Of a stretch of DNA of 35,966 bases, positions 1,767 through 35,966 are shown piece after piece (within the stretch, counting starts at the first letter, position 1; each line of letters begins with the position of its first letter). This DNA is from a virus: IMG/VR virus record IMGVR_UViG_3300020122_000093, positions 1 through 35,966 of that record, one strand, 5' to 3'. A model generated the notes under the pieces. That model had not been told where the DNA came from and searched no databases. It was given only the letters and a program-made list of their open reading frames with translations. A program made the translations under genes and the position numbers.

Positions 1767-2173
1767 CCGCCAACTCCATAAAACGCGCAGGCGCAAGGAT
1801 CAATGCGCCTACGCCTGCCGCAGAATTGAAACGGCTACGGGCGAAGGCTACGCGGGAGAAGTTTGAACTGCTTTTCTTGCAACAGGTGCGCGCGGCGAAG
1901 TTGGCCGAACCGCTTCGGCAATATCAATTTGCCAAGCCGAGGAAATGGGCGTTTGACTTTGCTTTTTTTGACGGACACTTAAATCCATGCGCCATCGAAA
2001 TCGACGGCGCAATCTACACCAACGGGCGCCACACGCGCGGCAAAGGATTCGAGGCTGACTGCGAAAAATTGAATGAGGCTGCTCTATTAGGCTGGACCGT
2101 GCTTCGCTTCTCTACCGGCCAAGTCAAAAGCGGCTATGCGATTCAGACGGTCGAACGATGGTTCAAGGCATGA
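1763..2173 (+). CDS. PD-(D/E)XK-like endonuclease (DUF559/Vsr-like)
   Basis: 136 residues from ATG 1763. The core reads RKWAFDFAFF (D65), AIEIDG (E79, D81), GRHTRGKG, DCEKLNEAALLGW (K102) and VLRFS, the order seen in DUF559 and very-short-patch-repair-type nucleases of the restriction-endonuclease fold. It probably nicks or cleaves DNA, perhaps branched or mismatched DNA. Similar stand-alone proteins occur in many phage early regions. The stop overlaps the start of the C5-cytosine methyltransferase (ATGA), which fits a Vsr-Dcm or restriction-modification-like pairing, but a recombination nuclease is equally possible. Nuclease assignment is fairly sure, substrate is not. Confidence 0.8.
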   Translation: MTANSIKRAGARINAPTPAAELKRLRAKATREKFELLFLQQVRAAKLAEPLRQYQFAKPRKWAFDFAFFDGHLNPCAIEIDGAIYTNGRHTRGKGFEADCEKLNEAALLGWTVLRFSTGQVKSGYAIQTVERWFKA

Positions 2174-3141
2174 AGCCTCTCGCCATAGATTTGTTCTGCG
2201 GCCTAGGCGGATGGACAGAGGGATTATTGGCGGAAGGATTTAGAGTAATCGGCTTCGACATCGAAAAGCACGAATACGGCGATGCCAAGTATCCCGCGCA
2301 ACTCGTATTGCAAGACGTCCTGACAATCCACGGCTCGCAATTCAAGGATGCCGCGCTGATCGTCGCAAGCCCTCCGTGTCAGGAGTTTAGCTACATGGCG
2401 ATGCCCTGGTCGAAGGCGAAGGCCAAGCAGGCCGACATTCTTGCGAATCCGACCGAATGGCTGCGTCTCTGCGCGCTGTTCGACGCGTGCTTTCGGATTC
2501 AGCAGGAGGCGATTGAAGCTGCCGGCCACTTTATTCCGCTCGTGGTTGAGAATGTCCGCGGCGCGCAAAGGTGGGTTGGCCGCTCCCGCTGGAATTACGG
2601 ATCGTTTCATCTTTGGGGCGATGTGCCGGCGCTTATGCCGATGACGAAGACCGCAACGAAGCTCGGCGCAGGCGCGTCATGGTATCCACCTGATGACCCG
2701 CGCCACACACCCGGACTTGATTTCACTCGGCTTGCAGGCCAGAAAGTCCCCGGCTTCCGCTTCGACGGCAAAGGCGGCAGTTTTCAAACTGCCGCAGTCG
2801 AAAGTACAGGCGTCAAATCGCCCGGCATGAACTGGTCAGACCAATCGAAGCGCGGGCAAGATTTCACGAGGCCGGCAGCGCAACATTGCGGCATGAAAAA
2901 CGACGGCGGCTCATGGTTCAATATCCCCGGCACAGGCGGAGTAGTCGGAAACCGGAATCCAGTTCACGATCACATCAAGCAGGGCGGCGACTTGTACGGC
3001 CCTGGTGAAGACTGTTCCGCGCAACGCCGCGCCGGCAGCAAGAGCAAAGCCCGCAAAGCCGCATCGGCAGCCATCGCGAAGATTCCGTTTCCGCTCGCCC
3101 GGCACATCGCCCACTACTGGAAGCCAACGTGTTCCACCTGA
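2170..3141 (+). CDS. C5-cytosine-specific DNA methyltransferase
   Basis: 323 residues from ATG 2170 (an in-frame ATG lies at 2158). Motif I is DLFCGLGGW (residues ~7-15, S-adenosylmethionine binding), motif IV is SPPC with the catalytic cysteine at 70, and motif VI is ENVRG with glutamate 127. The C-terminal IPFPLARHIAHYW matches the motif IX-X region. The variable middle (about 170-290) is rich in Gly, Ser and aromatic residues and should hold the target-recognition domain; the target is not predictable. It transfers a methyl group to C5 of cytosine, presumably to protect phage DNA from host restriction. Coupled to the preceding nuclease gene by a 4-base overlap. Confidence 0.93.
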   Translation: MKPLAIDLFCGLGGWTEGLLAEGFRVIGFDIEKHEYGDAKYPAQLVLQDVLTIHGSQFKDAALIVASPPCQEFSYMAMPWSKAKAKQADILANPTEWLRLCALFDACFRIQQEAIEAAGHFIPLVVENVRGAQRWVGRSRWNYGSFHLWGDVPALMPMTKTATKLGAGASWYPPDDPRHTPGLDFTRLAGQKVPGFRFDGKGGSFQTAAVESTGVKSPGMNWSDQSKRGQDFTRPAAQHCGMKNDGGSWFNIPGTGGVVGNRNPVHDHIKQGGDLYGPGEDCSAQRRAGSKSKARKAASAAIAKIPFPLARHIAHYWKPTCST

Positions 3142-5690: not shown

Positions 5691-5992
5691 ATACCCTTGA
5701 GCACGTTGATCCTCGCGATCGCCCTATTGTTCCATCAGAGGTTGGCCGCACCGCTTTCCGTCGCTATTCCAACTGGCGCAGCACGTTCGGTTATACCCAC
5801 CCGCACATCGATAAAAACCTCATGTGCATCATGTGCAAAACCGAGGACAATGAGCCTATTCGTGATATTGCCGAACTGAAGCCGTGGACCGACTTCTTTG
5901 CGGGCAAGACCTTTGAAGGTAAGCCTGTCAAGTTTACTGCAACCCGGTGCCATGTCTGCGGTTACCCATTTTCGTTTTACTGGCCCGCATGA
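5687..5992 (+). CDS. zinc-finger-like hypothetical protein between terminase subunits
   Basis: 101 residues from GTG 5687, overlapping the previous stop (GTGA). Two cysteine pairs, CIMC (about 47-50) and CHVC (about 89-92), suggest one zinc site. The N-terminus has GRTAFRRYSNWRSTFGY. Its stop overlaps the large terminase start (ATGA). A role in packaging is suggested by position only. Confidence 0.75.
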   Translation: MNTLEHVDPRDRPIVPSEVGRTAFRRYSNWRSTFGYTHPHIDKNLMCIMCKTEDNEPIRDIAELKPWTDFFAGKTFEGKPVKFTATRCHVCGYPFSFYWPA

Positions 5993-7335
5993 GTTTCTCC
6001 TTTACCGCCAAGCAACAGGAGGCCATGACTCAGCTAATCGCCTCCGACGCTACTCATCAAATGCTGTTCGGAGGCTCGCGCTCCGGCAAGACATTCTTGT
6101 TCGTGCGCATCGTAGTCATGCGCGCCATGAAAGCGCCCAAGAGCCGGCATGTCATCCTGCGCTTTCGCTTCAACGCCTGCATGGCCGCTATCGGCATGGA
6201 CACCTTTCCCAAGGTGATGTTGACCTGCTTTCCCGGCATCAAGTACACGCTCGACAAGAAGAACTGGATATTCACCCTAGAAAACGGGTCAGAAGTCTGG
6301 CTTGGCGGCTTAGATGACAAGGAACGCACGGAAAAGATTCTCGGCCAAGAGTTCGCCACGATTTACCTGAACGAGTGTAGTCAAATCCCCTATAACAGCC
6401 GCAACATCGCCCTGACGCGCTTGGCCCAGGCTGTAATGCAGGAAATGGCCGGGCGCGAACCGACGCCGCTGAGAGTGCGGATGTACTACGACTGCAATCC
6501 ACCGTCGAAAGCACATTGGACCTACAAACTCTTTCACGACAAGCGCGACCCGGAAAGCGGCAAGTCTCTGCCGCAGCCGGCCGATTACGCCTGGTTTCAG
6601 ATCAATCCAGAAGACAACCTGCAAAACCTGACGGTGGGCTATCTCGACACGCTCAGGAACCTTTCGCCGCGGCTGCAAAAGCGATTCCTGAAGGGCGAGT
6701 TCGGGGATGCGACGCCGAATGCCTTGTTCGCCCAGGAAACGATTGACGCTTGGCGCTCCGAAAACGACAAACTACCAGACTTTGTGCGCGTGGTAGTTGC
6801 GGTCGATCCGAGCGGTTCAGGCGATTCCGATAATGCTGATAACGACGCTATCGGCATTCTGGTGGCTGCGCTTGGTACGGATGGCAATGCCTACGTGGTC
6901 GAAGACTGTACCGTCAAAGCTGGTCCTGGAACTTGGGGACGAGTCGCTGCTTCTGCCTATGAGCGCCACGCAGCCGATGTGATTGTCGGCGAAACGAACT
7001 ACGGCGGTGAAATGGTCAAGTTCACCGTTCAGACTGCCGATCCGCGCGCCAACTACAAAGCTGTCACGGCAACGCGTGGCAAAGTCGTTCGCGCCGAGCC
7101 GATCAGCGCCTTGTACGACAAAGGCAAAGTCCGCCATGTCGGCCAGTTTCACCAGCTGGAAGACGAGCTCTGTGCCTTCTCGACTTTTGGCTACACCGGC
7201 CAAGCCTCCCCGAACCGGGCCGACGCCTTGATTTGGGCGCTGACGGAGCTTTTCCCGGGCGTGGTCAAACAGCCGCGTGTGGAAGCTGAAAACGACGAGG
7301 AAGAATGGTTCGCTCATGCAGGATGGATGGCATGA
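5989..7335 (+). CDS. terminase large subunit
   Basis: 448 residues from ATG 5989. The N-terminal ATPase has Walker A GGSRSGKT (28-35) and Walker B ending TIYLNE (E129). The C-terminal RNase H-like nuclease has VVVAVDPSGSG (D273), VIVGETNYGG near 330, and NRADALIWA (D412). It pumps DNA into the prohead and cuts it. With a P22-type portal and circularly permuted contig ends, headful packaging is likely. The longer reading from 5947 is out of step with the ATGA overlap at 5989-5992. Stop overlaps the following acetyltransferase start. Confidence 0.95.
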   Translation: MSFSFTAKQQEAMTQLIASDATHQMLFGGSRSGKTFLFVRIVVMRAMKAPKSRHVILRFRFNACMAAIGMDTFPKVMLTCFPGIKYTLDKKNWIFTLENGSEVWLGGLDDKERTEKILGQEFATIYLNECSQIPYNSRNIALTRLAQAVMQEMAGREPTPLRVRMYYDCNPPSKAHWTYKLFHDKRDPESGKSLPQPADYAWFQINPEDNLQNLTVGYLDTLRNLSPRLQKRFLKGEFGDATPNALFAQETIDAWRSENDKLPDFVRVVVAVDPSGSGDSDNADNDAIGILVAALGTDGNAYVVEDCTVKAGPGTWGRVAASAYERHAADVIVGETNYGGEMVKFTVQTADPRANYKAVTATRGKVVRAEPISALYDKGKVRHVGQFHQLEDELCAFSTFGYTGQASPNRADALIWALTELFPGVVKQPRVEAENDEEEWFAHAGWMA

Positions 7336-7640
7336 AAGTCCTCAAATTCGCCCGAAAAATGGAACCCGGCTGGCGCACACTCGGCAATGCAGCTCTGTGC
7401 CTGCGCGTGCCCGACTTTCTCGGGGCCGACGAACAAAAGTACATCTTCTGGCTCACCGACCTACAGGTAAAGCCCGAAAGCCGTCGCAAAGGGCTGGCAA
7501 ACGCCCTGCTGCGTCAAGTTTGTTCCGAGGCTGACGAGCATGGCAAATCCCTGCTACTCATTCCGCATTCCGACGAAGGCGAGCCGACTGATGACCAGTT
7601 GAAGGCTTGGTATCACCATCACCGCTTCGCCGTGATCTAG
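7332..7640 (+). CDS. GNAT-type N-acetyltransferase-like protein
   Basis: 102 residues. LTDLQVKPESRRKGLANALL (about 41-60) is the beta4 strand plus acetyl-CoA pyrophosphate loop (RRKGLA) of the GNAT fold, followed by a helix and KSLLLIPHSDEG and a short C-terminal strand region. It is shorter than the usual 140-170 residues, so the N-terminal strands are reduced. It lies between large terminase and portal with an ATGA overlap. Similar proteins occur here in related phages; target unknown, possibly a virion or host protein. Confidence 0.75.
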   Translation: MKVLKFARKMEPGWRTLGNAALCLRVPDFLGADEQKYIFWLTDLQVKPESRRKGLANALLRQVCSEADEHGKSLLLIPHSDEGEPTDDQLKAWYHHHRFAVI

Positions 7641-7684
7641 AACACCAGTGGTCCTTTGCCCTGCCTGATGCTGCGAGGCCCGCA

Positions 7685-9931
7685 ATGAGCGAAGCCGTTC
7701 AAGCCGCGGTGGACGACGTTGATGACGATGCCAAACAGTCAGGCAGCGAAGCCGACGACGCAATCATCGCCGACGCCAAGAAGTTCTATGCCTTGGTCGA
7801 GGAGTACGAGTCAGAGAACCGCACGAATGCGCTCACAGACAAGGAGTTCATGCGCGGGGGGGCGTATCAATGGGACCAAGCCGCGTGGGATTTGCGCCAG
7901 GTCGAGCAGCGCCCGCGCCTCACGATCAATGTCTTGCCCTCGTTCATTCAGCAGGTCACGAACGATCAGCGCCAGAACAAGACCAACATCAAGACTCACC
8001 CGGTCGCGCATGCCGACGACAAGATTAACGAAGTCGTCCAGGGCGCGATCAAGCACATCGAATACGCTTCCAACGCCGATGTGGCCTATGACCGCGCGCT
8101 CCAGTCGGCTACAGAAATCGGTTTCGGCTACTGGCGCCTGATTACGGACTACCAATCAGAGGACTCGTTCGACCAAATCATCAAGTTTTCGTCGTTCCGC
8201 AACCCGTTCATGGTGTTTTTCGACCCGCGCTCGACGGAACCGGATGGCAGCGACCAGAAGCGATGTTTGATCGCCTTGGACGTGCCGAAAGAGGAATTCG
8301 AGGCCGAATATCCCGACGCGCAGACCACTACTGACTTGTTCCCAAGCGGAACAGGCCTGGACGCCGGCTGGATCAACAAGGATAGCGTTCGCGTCGCTGA
8401 GTTTTACCGGATCGAAGAGGAGCAAGAAGACCTGTACCTGATGCCCGATGGGAAAACCCTGTGGGGCAGCGAAATTGACCAGCTTTTCGCCTCTCCGATG
8501 GCGGTCCAACTGCCCTTCAAAAAGGCTGACTTGAAGTGCCGCAAGTCCTCGCATCGCAAGGTCATGTGGTACAAGCTCACCGCTGCCGAGATTCTGGACC
8601 GGGCTGAGATCAAGTCGTATTGGATTCCCGTATTTCCGGTCTGGGGCACGGAAATCGACGTGAATGGCAAAGTGGACCGCCGCGGCATGATTCGGGACGC
8701 AAAAGACCCGGCCAAAATGTACAACGTGACCATGAGCGCCGCGACCGAGGAAATCGCTTCCCGGTCGAAAGCGCCTTGGATCGGTGCGGTCGGGCAGTTT
8801 GAGGGCCAGGAAAAGAAGTGGCGCCAAGCCAATCGACGCAATTTCCCGTATTTGGAATACGTCCCGAAAACGGTCGACGGACAGCTTGCGCCGCCCCCTC
8901 AGAGACAAGCCGGTGCCGAAATCCCCGCAGGTTTCCTCACGATGGCCGGTCACGCCCGCGACGACATCAAAGCCACGACCGGCATATTCGACGCTTCCCT
9001 AGGGGCGCAGGGCAACGAAACCAGCGGCAAGGCGATCAACGCCCGCAAGAATCAGGGCGAAAAGGCCAACTTCCACTACTCTGACAACCTATTTCGTACT
9101 CAGCGACACTGTGCCCGCGTCATGCTGAAAATGTTCCCGAATTACTACGACGCGACCCGCACGATCAAGATGCTGAAAGAGGATGGCACGGTCAAATCAG
9201 CCGTCATCAATCAGCCTACCCCAGAAGGACAGGCTCCGATCGATCCCGAAACCGGCGCGGTCCAAACGGTGTTGAATGATGTAACGGTGGCTGAGTTCGA
9301 TGTAACCTGTGACTCCGGACCCTCTTACTCGACGCAGCGCCTAGAGGCTCAGGACGCGATGGTGCAACTCGCGCAAGGCAACCCGAAAATCATGGACGTA
9401 GCCGGCGACATTGTGCTGTCCGGCTTCGACTTCAAGGGTGCTGACAAACTCGGCGAGCGGTACAAATACGCCCTGATTCCGCCTGTCCAGCAGGCTCTTG
9501 CCAGCGATGTGCCGGACTCGCCTGAAGTGGCCTCAGTCAAACAGGCTGCCGGCGCGCAGATCAACACGCTCAATCAGCACCTGCAAGGGGCGGTCCAAGG
9601 CATTCAAGAGCGAGACAAGGCGCTTGCCGACCTTCAGCAAAAGCTGAACGAATCGAAACTCAGCACCGAAAAAGAACAGATTAAACAGCAGGCCGAGAAC
9701 CAGCGCGCTCAGCTTCAGCAGGAAATGGAAAACCAGCGCATTGCCTTCCAAGAGCAGTTGATCGAGCAGCGCCGGGCTTTCGAGGACACCACCAACCTAA
9801 AGCTCGCGGAAATCCGGGCAGATGCCCAGCGCGATGTCGCCCAAATCAATGGTTCCGTGCAGATGATTTTGAAGGCACTGGAACCGCCGCCCGCAGCGGC
9901 AGCAGAGTTAGATAAACCGAACCCGACCTGA
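7685..9931 (+). CDS. portal protein, P22 type
   Basis: 748 residues from ATG 7685 with GAGG upstream, close to P22 gp1 (725). The start is acidic (SEAVQAAVDDVDDDAK). The diagnostic N-terminal core reads YQWDQAAWDLRQVEQRPRL then INVLPSFIQQVTNDQRQNK. GAQGNETSGKAI (about 445-460) matches the later core. The last ~150 residues (QQKLNESKLSTEKEQIKQQA onward) are a long Gln/Glu-rich coiled coil, like the barrel helix of the P22 portal. It forms the dodecameric ring at one capsid vertex through which DNA enters and leaves, and binds terminase and the gp4-like protein. Confidence 0.93.
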   Translation: MSEAVQAAVDDVDDDAKQSGSEADDAIIADAKKFYALVEEYESENRTNALTDKEFMRGGAYQWDQAAWDLRQVEQRPRLTINVLPSFIQQVTNDQRQNKTNIKTHPVAHADDKINEVVQGAIKHIEYASNADVAYDRALQSATEIGFGYWRLITDYQSEDSFDQIIKFSSFRNPFMVFFDPRSTEPDGSDQKRCLIALDVPKEEFEAEYPDAQTTTDLFPSGTGLDAGWINKDSVRVAEFYRIEEEQEDLYLMPDGKTLWGSEIDQLFASPMAVQLPFKKADLKCRKSSHRKVMWYKLTAAEILDRAEIKSYWIPVFPVWGTEIDVNGKVDRRGMIRDAKDPAKMYNVTMSAATEEIASRSKAPWIGAVGQFEGQEKKWRQANRRNFPYLEYVPKTVDGQLAPPPQRQAGAEIPAGFLTMAGHARDDIKATTGIFDASLGAQGNETSGKAINARKNQGEKANFHYSDNLFRTQRHCARVMLKMFPNYYDATRTIKMLKEDGTVKSAVINQPTPEGQAPIDPETGAVQTVLNDVTVAEFDVTCDSGPSYSTQRLEAQDAMVQLAQGNPKIMDVAGDIVLSGFDFKGADKLGERYKYALIPPVQQALASDVPDSPEVASVKQAAGAQINTLNQHLQGAVQGIQERDKALADLQQKLNESKLSTEKEQIKQQAENQRAQLQQEMENQRIAFQEQLIEQRRAFEDTTNLKLAEIRADAQRDVAQINGSVQMILKALEPPPAAAAELDKPNPT

Positions 9932-9959
9932 CGGCTTCAGGGCTAGCAAAGGAACGACC

Positions 9960-10799
9960 ATGAGTGACGTACAAGCAGAAACCGTAATCGAAACGCCGGC
10001 ACCCGCGCCGAACGCGGAGCAAGCACCCCCGGAGACCGCTGCCGAGGAAACTGCTGCGCCCATTGAGGGCGAAACCGAAGGCGAGGAAAAACCGGAACGA
10101 ACCTTTACCCAAGCCGAGCTTGACAAGATCGTTCAACGGGAAAAAGCATCCGCACATCGCAGGGCTGAAAGACTTGCACGCGCCGAAGTTGAACGCGACC
10201 ACTACCGCAGTCAGGTCGAGCAACAGCGTGCGCCCCAAGTCCAAGCCCAGGGCGAGCCGCAACCGAAAGACTTCAAGACGTGGGAAGAATACAACGCCGC
10301 CGTAGTCGATTACAAAGTGAATCAGCGGTTTGATTCGCTTCAGCGCGAAACTTCTGCAAAGCAGCAGGAACGCGCAGCGACAGAATATGCGGATCGCGTT
10401 CGCACCAACCTACAGACCTTTGCACGCGAACACCCTGATTTCGAGGACGTAGCTTTGTCTCCTGACCTACCCATAACCCCGCCTATGGCAGCAGCTATTG
10501 CGGAGTCGGATAAGTCGGGACAGATTGCCTACTACCTGGGCCAAAACCCGGACGAAGCCGAGCGTATCTCTCGACTCCCTCCGACTCGTCAGGCCGCTGC
10601 AATCGTCAATCTGGAGTCCAAGTTTGAGGCCGCGCCGAATAAGCAAACCACCGCACCGGCACCGGCAAAACCCGTAGCAGCAGGCAGTACGTCCACGTCG
10701 CTAAAAAACCTATCCGCCGAGCAGATTGCAAAAATGCCGATGGACAAGTACATGGCGATGCGCGCCAAAGAGGGCGCAAAGTGGGCGAAACGGAGTTAA
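9960..10799 (+). CDS. scaffolding protein
   Basis: 279 residues, with AAAGGAACG before the ATG. The N-terminus is highly acidic and Pro/Ala-rich (disordered); then TFTQAELDKIVQREKASAHRR starts a charged helical region, a common opening in phage scaffold proteins (FTQAELDxIV). The C-terminus is basic (MAMRAKEGAKWAKRS), fitting the coat-binding helix-turn-helix of P22-type scaffolds. It lies directly between portal and coat genes. It should direct coat assembly and then leave the prohead. Confidence 0.85.
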   Translation: MSDVQAETVIETPAPAPNAEQAPPETAAEETAAPIEGETEGEEKPERTFTQAELDKIVQREKASAHRRAERLARAEVERDHYRSQVEQQRAPQVQAQGEPQPKDFKTWEEYNAAVVDYKVNQRFDSLQRETSAKQQERAATEYADRVRTNLQTFAREHPDFEDVALSPDLPITPPMAAAIAESDKSGQIAYYLGQNPDEAERISRLPPTRQAAAIVNLESKFEAAPNKQTTAPAPAKPVAAGSTSTSLKNLSAEQIAKMPMDKYMAMRAKEGAKWAKRS

Positions 10800-10834
10800 A
10801 CCTATGCCGGTGGTAACCCTCAAAGGACACCACC

Positions 10835-12040
10835 ATGGCAACGAATTCCCTTGCAGTATGTACCATCGTAGCAAAGGAAGCGCTGGCGATCATCAAGAAC
10901 ACCATCGCTTTTGCAAAAAATGTGAACCGAGATTATGAGTCGGAGTTCGAGAGCAATCAATCACGCGGTTACAGTCCCGGCAACACGGTCAACATCAAGT
11001 TGCCGCCGCGTTTCCAGTACCGTGCCGGCCGAGTAGCTTCGCCCCAGGCGGTAACCGAAACCACCATTCCCTTGGTCGTTTCGCAGGGCGGTTGCGACCT
11101 CGGCTTTACCGGGTTCGAGCAGACGCTGAGCCTGCAACAACGCGAAAAGAAGATCATGGCCGCAGTTGCGACTGTGGTAAACGAAATCGACCGCCAAGGG
11201 CTGGATATGGTGCGGAAAAGCGTTTACAACAGCGTCGGCACCGTGGGTTCGCTGCCGACTACGCAGGCGAACGCGCTCAATACCATCCTGACAGCACAGC
11301 AAAAACTGGATGAAAACGGCGCTCCGCGTGACATGAACCGGGCGTTCTGCGTTAACCCGGCCATGAATGCGGCACTGGTTCAAGGCTTGGCGGGCTTGTT
11401 CAACAACCAGAAGAACATCAGTGACCAGTACACCAAAGGCATGATGGTGGAAGGCATCGGTGCCAACTGGATGATGGACCAGAACGTCACGGCCCAGACC
11501 AACGGCACGGCGGCTGTCAGCAATATCAACGGCTCCAACCAAACCGGCGCGACCATCACGGTCAACGCCATCACCGGCACCTTGAAGCAAGGCCAACTCA
11601 TCACGCTTCCCGGCGTGAACTCGGTAAACCCGCAATCCCGCGCGGATACCGGCTCGCTTCAGGGGTTTGTGGTGACGGCGGATACGGTAACCGGCGCAAC
11701 GTCGATTCCGATTTCACCGGCTATCGTGACTTCGGGAGCGTTCCAGAACGTGACCGCTTCGCCGACCTCCGGTTCGCCATGGGTATTGATCGGTACTGCT
11801 TCCGCAGTGATCGATCAGAACGTGGTCTTCCACGAGGACGCTTTCACCTTGGCGATGGTCCCGATGGCCGAGCCTCCTCCCGGTGCGGGCGCAGTCTGCA
11901 AGCAAATGTCCGACGACGGCTTTACCGTCAAGGTCACGCAATACTACGACGGCACCAACGATCAGTTGAACATGCGTCTTGACGTGCTGTTCGGCTGGCT
12001 GGCGACGTATCCGCAGTTTGCTTGCAAAATCTTGAAGTAA
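10835..12040 (+). CDS. major capsid protein, P22 coat type
   Basis: 401 residues, ATG 10835 with GGACACCACC upstream. The early part VAKEALAIIKNTIAFAKNVN and the region SRGYSPGNTVNIKLPPRFQ match the P22 gp5-like coat family; P22 coat is 430 residues. Residues ~225-315 (GATITVNAITGTLKQGQLIT, LQGFVVTADTVTGATSIPIS) form a Gly/Thr/Val-rich beta insertion domain. The end (LRLDVLFG-like MRLDVLFGWLATYPQFACK) fits the family C-terminus. It should form the T=7 shell, probably folded with help of the GroES-like protein. Confidence 0.92.
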   Translation: MATNSLAVCTIVAKEALAIIKNTIAFAKNVNRDYESEFESNQSRGYSPGNTVNIKLPPRFQYRAGRVASPQAVTETTIPLVVSQGGCDLGFTGFEQTLSLQQREKKIMAAVATVVNEIDRQGLDMVRKSVYNSVGTVGSLPTTQANALNTILTAQQKLDENGAPRDMNRAFCVNPAMNAALVQGLAGLFNNQKNISDQYTKGMMVEGIGANWMMDQNVTAQTNGTAAVSNINGSNQTGATITVNAITGTLKQGQLITLPGVNSVNPQSRADTGSLQGFVVTADTVTGATSIPISPAIVTSGAFQNVTASPTSGSPWVLIGTASAVIDQNVVFHEDAFTLAMVPMAEPPPGAGAVCKQMSDDGFTVKVTQYYDGTNDQLNMRLDVLFGWLATYPQFACKILK

Positions 12041-26491: not shown

Positions 26492-26842
26492 ATGCCGTCA
26501 CGGCCACCGGTTGATTTAACTCGGGAAATACGCGGACGACGAATCCTGAGCGTTTTTGAAGAACCGGCAGCGTTTCTGGTGGACGGGATTTGGTATCACC
26601 TTCCGCTCGGTGACTTCGGGTGGGCCGGTTACGAAGGCCATCCGTTTCAGGGGATGCTTTTTTCATGTCCCGGGTGTGGTGAGATTGGTTATTGCCCGCT
26701 TGAGGGGCCGGGCGATAAATGGGGATGGGACGGTAACGAGGATGCCCCTACGCTCACTCCGTCGATTCATAGCGCACCAGATAAGGGCGGCTGCGGCTGG
26801 CATGGATTTATGACTGCTGGTAATTTCCAGTTGAATCGCTAA
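26492..26842 (+). CDS. DUF6527-like protein
   Basis: 116 residues. LFSCPGCGEIGYCPL, WGWDGNEDAPTLTPSI and GCGWHGFMTAGNFQLN match the DUF6527 pattern, in which conserved Cys and His residues probably bind a metal. Role unknown. Last plus-strand gene: its TAA (26840-26842) abuts the stop of the opposing lipase gene with no gap. Confidence 0.75.
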   Translation: MPSRPPVDLTREIRGRRILSVFEEPAAFLVDGIWYHLPLGDFGWAGYEGHPFQGMLFSCPGCGEIGYCPLEGPGDKWGWDGNEDAPTLTPSIHSAPDKGGCGWHGFMTAGNFQLNR

Positions 26843-27610
26843 TTACAGGTTCTGCTGGCAGCGCTTCACGTACTCGCCAATCCGGTGATTTTCCACAGAA
26901 CCAAGCCGCCCAGAAAGAAAATCATCCGATGTCCCGCGTACATCCAGCAGGAATTGCTGCCACGCCGAATGATCAGGCGTAATTTTGCCATCCGGGCCGA
27001 AGTAAAACAAGGTGCCGACATGGCCGTATCCTTCCAGCCTCGTCGGGACTCTCGGGACAATATCGGTGTCGTTCACATAGCGGTACGTCGGCGACCCTTC
27101 CGCGATCTTGGTATAGGCCGCGCAAAAGTCCTGTTGGCCCACCCTCGGCGACCCAAAAGTACAAACCGCATGCACAAGCTGCTGTTCCCACCGCAACCGG
27201 ACGCAAGCAAGGGTCGCCAAGGCGGCGCCGAGACTGTGGCCCGTGATGTATAGCGGCTTGCCTTTGTGGGGCGCCAGGGCCTCTGTAACGTCTTTCCAGA
27301 CGTATTCCAAGGCTCGGGCGAAACCGGCGTGGACGTGTAGGCCGCTGGTCAGGAATTGGGTGGGGATGGCGTCGGCGTCGGTCATCCAGTCGCGCAAGGA
27401 CTCGGGTTCGGTGCCACGGAAGGCCAGCACCACGCAATCGTCGTTGGCGGCCACGAAGCCCTGCGTCTCGCGGCGATCAAAAAGGACAAGATAGGGAAAG
27501 TCACCAAGATCCGGCTCATGCACGACGTATGCAAAATTGTCGTAAGAAATCTGTGACAGTCTGGCCAGATTGAGCGCGTTCTGCGCCGACCACTCCTTAT
27601 CGAATTTCAT
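26843..27610 (-). CDS. class 3 lipase-type alpha/beta hydrolase
   Basis: 255 residues from ATG 27610 with AAGGAG upstream. The nucleophile elbow GHSLG (124-128, Ser126), then TFGSPRVG, NDTDIVPRVP (Asp183) and ENHRIGEY (His242) give a complete catalytic triad in the class 3 (fungal-type) lipase order; FRGTEPESLRDW provides the oxyanion region. It likely hydrolyses lipid esters, in the cytoplasm since no signal peptide is present. It is the last gene of the leftward unit. A lysis, membrane-remodelling or anti-host role is possible. Confidence 0.88.
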   Translation of the reverse strand: MKFDKEWSAQNALNLARLSQISYDNFAYVVHEPDLGDFPYLVLFDRRETQGFVAANDDCVVLAFRGTEPESLRDWMTDADAIPTQFLTSGLHVHAGFARALEYVWKDVTEALAPHKGKPLYITGHSLGAALATLACVRLRWEQQLVHAVCTFGSPRVGQQDFCAAYTKIAEGSPTYRYVNDTDIVPRVPTRLEGYGHVGTLFYFGPDGKITPDHSAWQQFLLDVRGTSDDFLSGRLGSVENHRIGEYVKRCQQNL

Positions 27611-27637: not shown

Positions 27638-27835
27638 TTAAATGTAAACGCCGTCAAGCGCGCGGCGAAGCATGGCGATAACCTCTGCCTGCCTATCTGC
27701 TGCAATTAGCGCCTGCGGGGTTTCACCATTGAGTAGCGGTTGGGGCGTGTCGAGCCAATCATTGGCAGCGTTCAAGTCGCCATCGTAAAGCTGCAATACG
27801 AGTTGCCAGATTTCGTCAAATGAAATGCAGATCAT
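27638..27835 (-). CDS. orphan MbcA/ParS-type antitoxin domain protein
   Basis: 65 residues from ATG 27835, which overlaps the previous stop (ATGA). LYDGDLNAANDWLDTPQPLL, NGETPQALI and VIAMLRRALDGVYI match the MbcA/ParS/Xre antitoxin toxin-binding domain (DUF2384, PF09722), whose ...GG-TP-x-x-L...ILxRLxxGxY core binds RES- or ParT-type toxins. The usual N-terminal Xre DNA-binding part is missing and no RES toxin lies next to it. It may neutralise a host toxin. The longer reading from 27964 lacks a ribosome site. Confidence 0.7.
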   Translation of the reverse strand: MICISFDEIWQLVLQLYDGDLNAANDWLDTPQPLLNGETPQALIAADRQAEVIAMLRRALDGVYI

Positions 27836-28119
27836 TTCGTCTCCACGGTTGGTTCGGCGATGCGTTTTTTGTACCAATCCGAGTGAATGTGGCAGGTTCG
27901 CCGGTAGCCAGCGTCGGAAGGCCAGCCACTTGAGGCCCAGTCCTTGCATCCCGGTTCGTCGCATTGATCTACAAATTTATCTGCGCTTCGGCACTTCGGG
28001 CAGATTTGCCAACCATCGCCCTCAACCTGCTGCATGGGGTCTGCAACGAAATCGAGTTGCGATGTCGGGCCGCGCCAATTGCACTCCTCGCAAATCCAAA
28101 TCGTGTTTGGGTTCATCAT
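27832..28119 (-). CDS. zinc-ribbon protein
   Basis: 95 residues from ATG 28119 (or 28116), with AAAGGAAG upstream. WICEECNWRGP and WQICPKCRSADKFVDQC form one zinc ribbon; CDEPGCKDW and CHIHSDW may form a second site. Coupled to the antitoxin-domain gene downstream by ATGA overlap. Nucleic-acid or protein binding is likely; not assigned to a family. Confidence 0.75.
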   Translation of the reverse strand: MMNPNTIWICEECNWRGPTSQLDFVADPMQQVEGDGWQICPKCRSADKFVDQCDEPGCKDWASSGWPSDAGYRRTCHIHSDWYKKRIAEPTVETK

Positions 28120-32465: not shown

Positions 32466-32795
32466 TTATTTCACAATAACTATATTTTGTTTGAACATTT
32501 CGTGGAGAGTTTTGATGTGCGCCTTATTCCACATATCGAATTTGTTGTACTCCGTAAAGTTACCGGACGGATCAAGCCCTTTTCCCTGGTCGCACCAAGC
32601 GTGACACTTGGCACAAAGGTAGGCAACAAAACAATCTGCCGCCTTTAGCCCTTTGCCTTTGCCATGAGCCATTTGATTCGAGTGAGCACAAACAATCGTC
32701 CCATCGTCAGCCCCGCAATTCTGGCAAATCTGTCCATTGGCGCTATCCAGCAATTTGCGCGAGCGGAAGGCGTTGAATTTTTGCAGGCTACCCAT
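32466..32795 (-). CDS. DUF1364-like phage nuclease (YbcO type)
   Basis: 109 residues from ATG 32795. CQNCGADDGTIVCAHSNQM, GKGKGLKAADCFVAYLC and AKCHAWCDQGKG match the DUF1364 family, an HNH-like four-cysteine fold with the conserved His (AHSN). Lambdoid members lie among nin-region recombination genes, as here next to NinB. It probably processes recombination intermediates. Overlaps the NinB gene by eight bases. Confidence 0.82.
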   Translation of the reverse strand: MGSLQKFNAFRSRKLLDSANGQICQNCGADDGTIVCAHSNQMAHGKGKGLKAADCFVAYLCAKCHAWCDQGKGLDPSGNFTEYNKFDMWNKAHIKTLHEMFKQNIVIVK

Positions 32796-33159
32796 GTCCG
32801 TTTTCCCGCCAGGCTTTGATAAATTCGATCAGGTCGCTACATTCTCGCTTTGTCAGGTCGCTGGTGCGCTGATACAGCACGTCTACGCCCACGCCATCAA
32901 GCGCAGGGACCAGCTCCACACCTTGGCCCGTAGCGCGGCACCACGCAGCCGTTAGGAGCCGTTTCCAAGCCTCTACGGACCAGCGTTTGCCAGCCCATTC
33001 CCGCGACTCGGCGATTTCCTGCAATTCCGCGTGCAGCAAAGCATTCTGTTCTAGGTTGCGCGTGGGCTCGTCAATCCGTACAACCCACCCGTCCGGGGCC
33101 ATATCAATCAGGCCCTTGGCGCGTTCGCGTACCTTCGGATTGACGAGCGTGAGGATCAT
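32788..33159 (-). CDS. ninB: NinB/Orf-type recombination mediator
   Basis: 123 residues. RIDEPTRNLEQNALLHAELQ, EWAGKRWSVEAWKRLLTAAW and DLTKRECSDLIEFIKAWREN match the NinB (lambda Orf) family, which binds single-stranded DNA and SSB and replaces RecFOR in phage recombination. Length fits (lambda NinB 146). Overlaps the exonuclease gene by four bases, so annealing protein, exonuclease and NinB are made together. Confidence 0.88.
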   Translation of the reverse strand: MILTLVNPKVRERAKGLIDMAPDGWVVRIDEPTRNLEQNALLHAELQEIAESREWAGKRWSVEAWKRLLTAAWCRATGQGVELVPALDGVGVDVLYQRTSDLTKRECSDLIEFIKAWRENGHG

Positions 33160-33767
33160 GCGCGATCCATGAGAGTTTTCGTTGTCGCAGCAACCTCGTC
33201 GAGAAAATGGCTGACTTCGGTAGCGAGCATGTCAATATATTCTGGGTCCCTAGCTACGCGCTCAACATACAGGCGAAGATGTGCGGGCATCCTTGGGTCA
33301 AAAGAAACAAAATCCCACCATTGCCGCCCGGTGACCCACATACACCCTTGAATTTGGGCGACGTGCTCAGCAGGCATTTTTGACATGATCGTTTCGACAT
33401 GGACGGCAGAATTATAAGGACACTTGATTTCAATGCCGCCTAGGTCGTCCACCAATCCATCAGGAGAGGCGCCAATCCATTCCAGTTCTGGATGCTTGAG
33501 AAAGCCCTTCTCGAAGACCATGCGCCCCGTGGCCGCCTCATATGCCATTCTAGCTTGCGGTTCCGTGGCCGTTCCCCATTCCATTGCGGAATTTTTGTAG
33601 GACTCCTGCGGCAAACCAGTCAAGCGCTCGGTCACAAGCTGAATTCGATAGGTGCGTCGTGTAGCCGCTTCTCCGGTTTTGATCTTGGCAAGCACGTCTT
33701 TCAATCGCGACGCGGTAACATGTCCGGCCCGAGCGGCGAGCCATTCTGCGGAGCCTTGTTCCATCAT
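33156..33767 (-). CDS. YqaJ/lambda-exonuclease-type recombinase
   Basis: 203 residues from ATG 33767, or 202 from 33764, which has the better distance to GGAGG. GSAEWLAARAGHVTAS opens the domain, WGTATEPQARMAYE holds Glu69, GASPDGLVDD Asp103, GGIEIKCP Glu113 and Lys115, and HVAQIQ the glutamine motif: a full YqaJ set. It digests one strand of duplex DNA 5' to 3' to give tails for the annealing protein upstream. Confidence 0.9.
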   Translation of the reverse strand: MMEQGSAEWLAARAGHVTASRLKDVLAKIKTGEAATRRTYRIQLVTERLTGLPQESYKNSAMEWGTATEPQARMAYEAATGRMVFEKGFLKHPELEWIGASPDGLVDDLGGIEIKCPYNSAVHVETIMSKMPAEHVAQIQGCMWVTGRQWWDFVSFDPRMPAHLRLYVERVARDPEYIDMLATEVSHFLDEVAATTKTLMDRA

Positions 33768-34360
33768 GCCTCCGCCACTTCGCTAGCAATCGTCTTGAAG
33801 TCGGTATGGCGACTAATGCCGATGGCTTTGCGCTCGTCTTCGGTGATAGTTTCCCAAAACCGTTTGTATTCCTTCACGCCTTTTTCAGCACATTTTTTGG
33901 CGACGGTCAGAAGGGCTTCGCTTGCCTGCGGTTGCTCGTCCTCGGCTTCGTTGTAGCGGGATTCGTCGCCTTCGCCAGTTTCGATTTGCAGCATTTTTAG
34001 GATAGCGGTTTTCGTGGCATAGCTAGCCCCCTTACCAGGGGCTTTGTCGCCGTAGTCAACAGCATGGGACGTGACCTCGATTGATACCTTGTCAGAGGGT
34101 TCATCGATATTGACGAAATCGACTCGCCACTTTGATTCAAAGCGCAACGCCTCCGTTCCTTTTGCGGATTTGTTCCCGGTCATTACGACCTGACATGAAA
34201 GCTCCGTAGGGAACACCAAGACGCCGTGCTTGATGAAGTGATCTCGCGTGAGGCCGGTAACTTGATCATGAGTAACAGCGCGATAGTTTTCGACCGCCTT
34301 ATCTTTTTTCGCGTAGGCGACGAGTTTTTTGATTTCATTGATACGCTGATAGATATTCAT
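33764..34360 (-). CDS. erf: Erf-type single-strand annealing protein
   Basis: 198 residues from ATG 34360 (P22 Erf 204). MNIYQRINEIKKLVAYAKKD, then a strand-rich core ending with VDYGDKAPGKGASYATKTAI and LLKMLQ-like ILKMLQIETGEGDES, matches the ERF family. An acidic linker leads to a C-terminal helical domain. Anneals complementary strands and can recircularise injected DNA. The longer reading from 34420 overlaps another gene. Both ends overlap neighbours by ATGA. Confidence 0.88.
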   Translation of the reverse strand: MNIYQRINEIKKLVAYAKKDKAVENYRAVTHDQVTGLTRDHFIKHGVLVFPTELSCQVVMTGNKSAKGTEALRFESKWRVDFVNIDEPSDKVSIEVTSHAVDYGDKAPGKGASYATKTAILKMLQIETGEGDESRYNEAEDEQPQASEALLTVAKKCAEKGVKEYKRFWETITEDERKAIGISRHTDFKTIASEVAEA

Positions 34361-34539
34361 TTCGCCATCACCACGATCACCCAAATCGCCGACGCAACAG
34401 CCGCACCGATTCCGCCCCATTTCACTTTCAGCGACCGCAGACGCTTCTCCGTCATTTTCGGACGCCGTATCTTGGCAACGGTAGTCTTGATCTTGCCGAT
34501 GACTGCCGGCGGTTTGCTTGTGTCTATTTGTGCGTTCAT
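34357..34539 (-). CDS. single-span membrane protein with basic N-terminus
   Basis: 60 residues from ATG 34539 with AAAGGAA upstream. Strongly basic first part (TTVAKIRRPKMTEKRLRSLK), then one membrane segment (IGAAVASAIWVIVVMAK) at the C-terminus. Coupled to the annealing protein gene. Function unknown. Confidence 0.7.
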   Translation of the reverse strand: MNAQIDTSKPPAVIGKIKTTVAKIRRPKMTEKRLRSLKVKWGGIGAAVASAIWVIVVMAK

Positions 34540-34911: not shown

Positions 34912-35132
34912 TTGTCCTCCAGCGCGCGAATATGTCTCATCAGCAATACCGAGACCGGAAAGTACGCCTCACCGCGCGCCGGCTTCTCGACCATCTGCCG
35001 CTCGAAGTTGTCGAGCTGATCGTCGGTCAGGACTCCGGCAACCGCAGCGTCCGCCACCATCTGCGCGCGGCGTTGTTCGGCTGCTGCGCGGAGTTCGGCG
35101 GTTACTTCGGATTGGTAGGGGCGCTCGGTCAT
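34908..35132 (-). CDS. small helical protein
   Basis: 74 residues. SEVTAELRAAAEQRRAQMVA followed by VLTDDQLDNFERQMVEKPA; helical throughout, ending LLMRHIRALEDK. ATG 35132 overlaps the DUF6745-like stop. Function unknown. Confidence 0.7.
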   Translation of the reverse strand: MTERPYQSEVTAELRAAAEQRRAQMVADAAVAGVLTDDQLDNFERQMVEKPARGEAYFPVSVLLMRHIRALEDK

Positions 35133-35966
35133 GATTCCGCCACTGGCGCGTAATCTTCCGGACGCTTAAAAAACAGCGTATCCGGCGAACTACGTTTGCG
35201 CCATGTCGAGGCCGACGCAGCCAAGCATTCGCGACCGGCGCGCCCGTTGTACGCATCCGGGTCAACGGGAATAACGTAGCGTTTCGTAGTGCCATCCGGC
35301 TCTGGAGTGGAGTTCAGGACATCGAGCAGACAGAGTTCGTCGCGCCGCCAGAGCTTCGCGTCGCGCAGGCCGATCATGGCGTGATCCGGCGGGCATGAGT
35401 CCACCAGTTGCAGTTTGGCTTCCCGGCAGTAGCGCTCGTAGCCGAAGCGCTCGATCATCACGCGTCGAATCTCGGCATTCTCCTCGGCCTCGATTTCGGC
35501 CAGGGTGATGGTTTCCGGTCGCATGACCACTTTCTCCGGAACCCGGATACCGTGAATGGCGTACACGGCCCAACCCTTCCAACCTACTGCTGGGCCTTTG
35601 TCGTTGTGCAGGCGGTGAGATCCCCAACCGCGAGTAACAGCAGGATTAGTCAGTTCCCGATTAACTTCGGCCGGCCGCTCACACACCATGATGAAATCGG
35701 TATGGGGCCACCACCAGCAGGCGGACTGAATCGTTTCCTCATAGGCAATCCCGCGATCCCACAAATTACCCTCCAGGGAAAGTTCGCCGACTTCTCGCAT
35801 AAATGAGGTATATGCACCACCCCACCAGTAACCGCCGCACCAGAATTGACCGCCGATGTAGTTGGCCCAATTTCTACGGGCGGTTGCACCCAAGACCCCA
35901 CGAACTCTTTTGACCGCGCCGCCCACCGCGCCGCCCACAGCGTCGCCCACCGCGTCGCCCACCGCG
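35129..35966 (-). CDS. DUF6745-like protein, C-terminal part (begins at 317)
   Basis: Residues ~106-384 of the protein that starts at 317. After the repeats (to ~124) comes a Trp/Gly-rich segment (IGGQFWCGGYWWGGAYTSFM), then HRLHNDKGPAVGWKGWAVYA, HGIRVPEKVVMRPETITLAE and EENAEIRRVMIERFGYERYC, the DUF6745 core, and a C-terminal region ending KRPEDYAPVAES. A GTG at 35962 only looks like a start because the contig is cut there. Function unknown. Confidence 0.85.
   Translation of the reverse strand, partial: AVGDAVGDAVGGAVGGAVKRVRGVLGATARRNWANYIGGQFWCGGYWWGGAYTSFMREVGELSLEGNLWDRGIAYEETIQSACWWWPHTDFIMVCERPAEVNRELTNPAVTRGWGSHRLHNDKGPAVGWKGWAVYAIHGIRVPEKVVMRPETITLAEIEAEENAEIRRVMIERFGYERYCREAKLQLVDSCPPDHAMIGLRDAKLWRRDELCLLDVLNSTPEPDGTTKRYVIPVDPDAYNGRAGRECLAASASTWRKRSSPDTLFFKRPEDYAPVAES
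35912..35966. repeat. 12-base tandem repeat, right part
   Basis: Continues the 12-base units of 1-53 across the contig junction. The units differ by single bases (GAC/GGC, one AGC-type change), so they are diverged repeats rather than an exact assembly duplication. Confidence 0.85.

Follow-up and report, generated by a model that had tools for sequence, protein, structure and literature searches.

Genomic setting of the antitoxin-domain gene

The window, by which we mean the whole stretch of DNA analyzed (35,966 nt), is a viral record of 36 kb that looks near complete because the same 12-nt tandem repeat is common to both ends (positions 7-64 and 35901-35958, in frame in the ORF at 35129-35962). 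The map is probably circular, with assembly having probably broken it at this repeat. A late unit on the plus strand (5947..12040) encodes the terminase large subunit, portal, scaffold and major head protein, as assigned by PHROG and by tblastn to relatives; these genes are related to those of EBPR podovirus 1 and are of podovirus type. On the minus strand, a recombination block (32466..34420) encodes an ERF annealing protein, a YqaJ/RecE-like exonuclease, NinB and an HNH endonuclease (PHROG), an order shared with Bradyrhizobium phage ppBeUSDA76-2. A cytosine-methyltransferase-like protein is encoded at 2158-3141 on the plus strand, with a family match limited to its first ~80-115 residues.

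The recombination genes are followed on the minus strand by small genes, a zinc-ribbon gene, a gene for a protein with an antitoxin domain and, as the last gene of the unit, a class-3 lipase. Since this unit continues downstream of ERF, YqaJ, NinB and HNH on the same strand, its gene order and content suggest an early unit, and we infer early expression of the antitoxin-domain gene within it. The gene itself (27638..27835, minus strand; ATG at 27835, TAA at 27638) has the 65 codons given for it in the first-pass annotation, and its identification is based on a PF09722 match, an independent profile and a structural model. It has a good ribosome site, a GGAG 7 nt 5' of the ATG (GTGGAGACGAAATG), and its start overlaps the stop codon of the preceding zinc-ribbon gene by 4 nt (ATGA). 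An alternative upstream ATG would give a 108-aa product, whose added N-terminal part overlaps the preceding gene and contained no domain in a Pfam search. PADLOC returned no defence-protein match for the antitoxin-domain gene or its immediate neighbours.

The preceding gene (27832..28116, minus strand) encodes a zinc-ribbon-like protein of 94 aa, assigned from its cysteine pattern (CxxC motifs) and with no Pfam match above cut-off. Relatives of this protein in three viral contigs have no PF09722 gene next to them. The coupling of the two genes proposed in the first-pass annotation thus holds in that the ATGA overlap is real, but it is positional alone, and the zinc-ribbon gene was rejected as a conserved partner because its relatives in other phages stand without an adjacent PF09722 gene. 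The relatives themselves (L054 3001-3243, L055 3001-3219 and L056 2428-2538) form a conserved small phage family with the motif CDEPGC...CGWPSDAGYR(H/R)(T/G)C.

The class-3 lipase gene (26843..27610, minus strand; PF01764 (Lipase_3), E=1.3e-26) lies 27 nt downstream of the antitoxin-domain gene and has its own Shine-Dalgarno sequence, AAGGAG. Its product could possibly act in lysis or on the host membrane, and its phage relatives are distant only (cyanophages, Cylindrospermopsis phages). The late unit ends with a DUF6527 gene (26492-26842, plus strand) that faces the lipase; a DUF6527 gene is also found near the antitoxin at locus L002 of a Citrobacter plasmid, next to TIR-domain genes.

The small genes near the antitoxin-domain gene are hardly shared with the phage's relatives, and PF09722 was absent from nine related records, several of them fragments, as well as from ppBeUSDA76-2. 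Because of this absence, the antitoxin-domain gene is considered an accessory gene, occupying a variable slot near the end of the putative early unit.

Sequence and predicted fold of the 65-aa protein

Residues 15-58 of the 65-aa protein match PF09722, the C-terminal toxin-binding domain of Xre/MbcA/ParS proteins (E=4.3e-6). The proposal of an MbcA/ParS toxin-binding domain in the first-pass annotation hinged on such a match, which was present at 27.0 bits against a Pfam cut-off of 24.5, i.e., just 2.5 bits above it. We also scored the protein with an independent profile built from other family members alone, with the window protein left out. It reached 47.1 bits (E=2.9e-14), as against 4.5 bits for the next, unrelated ORF in the window and at most 10.4 bits among 20,000 shuffled versions of the protein. 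With the Pfam score and an independent-profile score far above those of the window ORFs and shuffles, membership in the PF09722 domain family is not in doubt.

Matches to two models of full antitoxins were confined to their C-terminal halves. The protein aligned from residue 6 with positions 74-132 of 133 in TIGR02293 (E=1.8e-7; 30.9 bits versus a curated cut-off of 57) and with positions 53-111 of 112 in NF049845 (E=8.7e-7; 29.0 bits versus a curated cut-off of 90), and these scores fall under the cut-offs, as is to be expected when the 65-aa protein covers only half of a full-length antitoxin. In alignments with full antitoxins partnered by RES toxins, similarity starts shortly ahead of the toxin-binding domain's first helix and extends to the final residues, GVY/GVF tail included. 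The common C-terminal motif RLEHGV(F/Y) has diverged to RRALDGVY, so binding of a RES toxin is not to be assumed and affinity could have been lost.

An AlphaFold2 model from a four-row alignment (pLDDT 86.9) predicts four helices, at residues 6-16, 21-28, 40-45 and 49-60. In a Foldseek search of the PDB with this model, the 12 best matches, which were the sole ones above a probability of 0.3, were all RES-type antitoxins: MbcA (6fkg), VPA0769 (8gug), ParS (6d0h), P. putida Xre (6gw6/9r35) and NatR (8qnq/8qnl). The TM-scores on the query were 0.56-0.78; the E-values were weak (0.1-3) because a domain of 65 residues is short, and it is the unanimity of the matches and the TM-scores that count. 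All of these solved structures come from toxin-antitoxin complexes. One of them, 6d0h_B, is a ParS chain of 72 residues in complex with ParT; its sequence group is named as an antitoxin fragment, and the chain was also matched by profile. The profile was needed to recover the PDB antitoxins, as phmmer with the single 65-aa sequence against the PDB gave only chance-level ankyrin/DARPin matches. The domain assignment made in the first-pass annotation is thus upheld by the Pfam model, the independent profile and the predicted fold.

The same annotation had described the protein as lacking both a DNA-binding part and a partner toxin, and each absence was confirmed by our searches. Neither the 65-aa nor the 108-aa reading contains an HTH (Pfam search), and no Xre-like HTH (PF20432) was found in the 36-kb record. 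A RES domain (PF08808) was likewise absent from the record at E<=10; the antitoxin-domain gene is therefore not part of a self-contained toxin-antitoxin module, and its product shares with the Dmd/AdfA/AdfB class the feature of being a small phage protein without a partner toxin.

Compared with the antitoxins of RES-Xre, ParST, MbcTA and NatRT systems (Xre, ParS, MbcA and NatR), the 65-aa protein has in common the sequence and fold of the toxin-binding domain, the C-terminal helix and the GVF/GVY tail. It differs in lacking the HTH and a RES neighbour, in its location in a putative early block of a phage, in the diverged RLEHG motif and in a one-residue deletion before the last helix. As HTH, RES neighbour and a full-length score were each looked for and not found, the protein falls outside the full type II RES/Xre antitoxin families (NF049845, TIGR02293), though it may still work like a member of them.

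PF09722 genes in bacteria, plasmids and viruses

The places of PF09722, RES and Lipase_3 genes were compared in 299 genomes of Pseudomonadota, leaving out a few of the weakest partial matches. RES neighbours were scored by Pfam search, since a narrower RES profile of our own missed the RES gene of one locus (L044). When PF09722 was encoded in frames of more than 106 codons, a RES gene lay within 1.5 kb in 88 of 112 cases (79%), whereas only 1 of the 13 shorter frames had a RES neighbour. The toxin-binding domain is thus strongly tied to RES, and its short solitary copies usually do not adjoin a RES gene. Stand-alone short PF09722 proteins without RES nearby occur on several bacterial chromosomes (e.g., L042, L043, L045, L049 and L050). 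In one genome (G098; L043 and L048), several short PF09722 proteins are encoded on two contigs, and no RES match was found genome-wide. No Lipase_3 gene was found within 3 kb of any of the 125 PF09722 genes in the 299 genomes.

Locus L044 (3929-4873) encodes a 78-aa PF09722 protein without HTH (32.9 bits), whose stop codon is directly followed by the start of a RES gene (118.8 bits). This is a natural minimal RES module with a bare domain in the place of the antitoxin. Its stand-alone domain and similar length make it comparable to the window protein, from which it differs by the RES partner directly downstream. Because 79% of the full-length copies adjoin RES and because of the L044 pair, a bare domain can be the antitoxin.

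Among plasmids in PLSDB, 1,417 records match PF09722, most of them from Klebsiella, and three of the plasmid loci that were inspected have an adjoining RES gene. Peptides of the 65-aa protein itself found no relatives in IMG/VR, the INPHARED phages or the GTDB species genomes, and a search of 50,697 phage records gave no clear match to the PF09722 family. With patterns derived from the profile, the sole viral match was one IMG/VR record carrying a complete antitoxin-RES pair (L006 = L033 = L053). These collection scans depend on exact short patterns, and the rarity of the domain in viruses holds just within such scans. A Dokdonella locus (L032) was considered as a relative and rejected as a chance match within a large unrelated protein.

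A Foldseek search of BFVD recovered short proteins of like predicted fold from uncultured Caudovirales phages: A0A6J7XBF0 (73 aa), which is already named after the domain family, A0A6J5LGC4 (75 aa) and A0A6J5PX87 (57 aa). Probabilities were 0.93-1.0, with the weak E-values (0.03-0.2) of a short domain. These proteins resemble the 65-aa protein in size, predicted fold and phage origin and, because they share the predicted fold, the antitoxin-domain gene in the window may be one of several phage captures.

Candidate roles of the phage protein

The best-supported reading of these data, though one that we hold only tentatively and at somewhat short of even chances, is that the gene encodes a captured minimal antitoxin which inhibits a RES NADase of the host by occupying its active site. 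The phage, a podovirus of the EBPR podovirus 1 type, would express from its putative early block an Xre/MbcA/ParS-type antitoxin reduced to its toxin-binding half, whose target would be a RES-family NAD+-degrading toxin encoded by the host itself or by a resident plasmid or prophage. The antitoxins of NatRT and GndRX have their C-terminal helix seated in the active-site groove of the toxin (PMC11535050; PMC12457610), and the C-terminal helix and GVYI tail of the 65-aa protein may be pushed into the active-site cleft of a RES toxin in a similar manner. When host shut-off removes the labile host antitoxin, the phage protein could then keep NAD+ available and, because it has no HTH, would neutralize the toxin without repressing the host operon.

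A small phage protein acting in this way would have a precedent in AdfB (anti-DarT factor B) of Vibrio phage ICP1, a 77-aa protein proposed to mimic an antitoxin against a toxin of the ADP-ribosyltransferase superfamily (PMC11481870). AdfB has <15% similarity to DarG, is thought to be independent in origin and has been assayed (PMC11481870), whereas the 65-aa protein is a recognizable homolog of host antitoxins whose function is predicted from sequence. The analogy drawn in the first-pass annotation was to Dmd of phage T4, which acts against RnlA/LsoA. It is apt as far as the idea of an orphan phage antitoxin goes, but the likeness is functional alone, as Dmd counters another class of toxin and is unrelated to the PF09722 domain (PMC9503650); AdfB, a 77-aa antitoxin mimic against DarT, is the closer parallel (PMC11481870).

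A host-defence context for the captured antitoxin is weakened by the fact that RES toxins do not count among the established defences against phages. Those known to deplete NAD are TIR or SIR2 enzymes, not RES, and no effect of NatT on phages was seen when >50 phages were tested (PMC11535050). Nor is the orphan status of the gene alone proof of an anti-defence role, because short solitary PF09722 proteins also occur on bacterial chromosomes, 12 of 13 without a RES neighbour. The interpretation offered by the first-pass annotation is thus supported in part: its domain assignment and the absence of both HTH and toxin stand, and binding of a host RES-type toxin is the best-supported reading, but the zinc-ribbon link is positional and orphan status by itself does not establish anti-defence.

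As short solitary copies are usually without a RES neighbour, the domain may have other uses, and the main rival explanation is that the phage protein has kept the fold for another job, with a partner that is not a RES toxin, for example a regulator of phage or host origin, or an ART-like enzyme outside the RES family. The solitary chromosomal proteins (L042, L043, L045, L049 and L050) and the diverged C-terminal contact motif are consistent with such a role. The 79% of full-length family members that adjoin RES and the exclusive origin of the matched solved structures from toxin-antitoxin complexes argue against it, as does the fact that this analysis turned up no other class of partner for the domain, and we regard it as unlikely on balance, though a serious contender. 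A pairing with the class-3 lipase 27 nt downstream, for which the gene would be the antitoxin of a new type of pair in the usual antitoxin-first order, would fit the gene order, the spacing and the strong Lipase_3 match; given that Lipase_3 was absent from the 3 kb around each of the 125 PF09722 genes in the 299 Pseudomonadota genomes and that the lipase has its own ribosome site, we consider it very improbable.

The absence of the HTH half, a PF09722 score that is weak for the family and the lack of a homolog in related phages could also be read as signs of a captured antitoxin decaying without function. Phage genomes usually shed dead genes fast, and in this gene the ORF is intact, the start falls cleanly at the domain boundary with a good Shine-Dalgarno sequence and a 4-nt overlap, and all helices and the C-terminal tail are present, making a functionless remnant quite improbable. 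The protein might instead serve against addiction and protect the phage or the host by neutralizing a RES toxin that belongs to a competing plasmid or prophage, not to a dedicated defence system. PF09722 is common on plasmids (the 1,417 PLSDB records, with RES adjoining in three of the inspected loci), and a RES module, SlvT-SlvA, has been linked with megaplasmid stability (PMC7301842). No match to a tyrosine integrase (Phage_integrase) was found in the record, which speaks against this role and leaves long-term co-residence hypothetical, and we rate it as improbable.

The more specific proposal, in which the phage took over the toxin-binding half of a RES-Xre antitoxin and uses it solely to inhibit RES NADases of its host, is possible but doubtful at present. 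We know of no earlier counter-defence protein against the RES toxin family, and a dedicated RES inhibitor would, if true, be the first. As a counter-defence protein it would also stand apart from Dmd and AdfB, both thought to be independent in origin, by its visible descent from a family of host antitoxins. A phage gene devoted to the inhibition of a RES toxin would suggest that RES-Xre modules act against phages and would be a reagent with which to test this, and a dedicated inhibitor, if true, would be indirect evidence for an anti-phage function of some of these modules.
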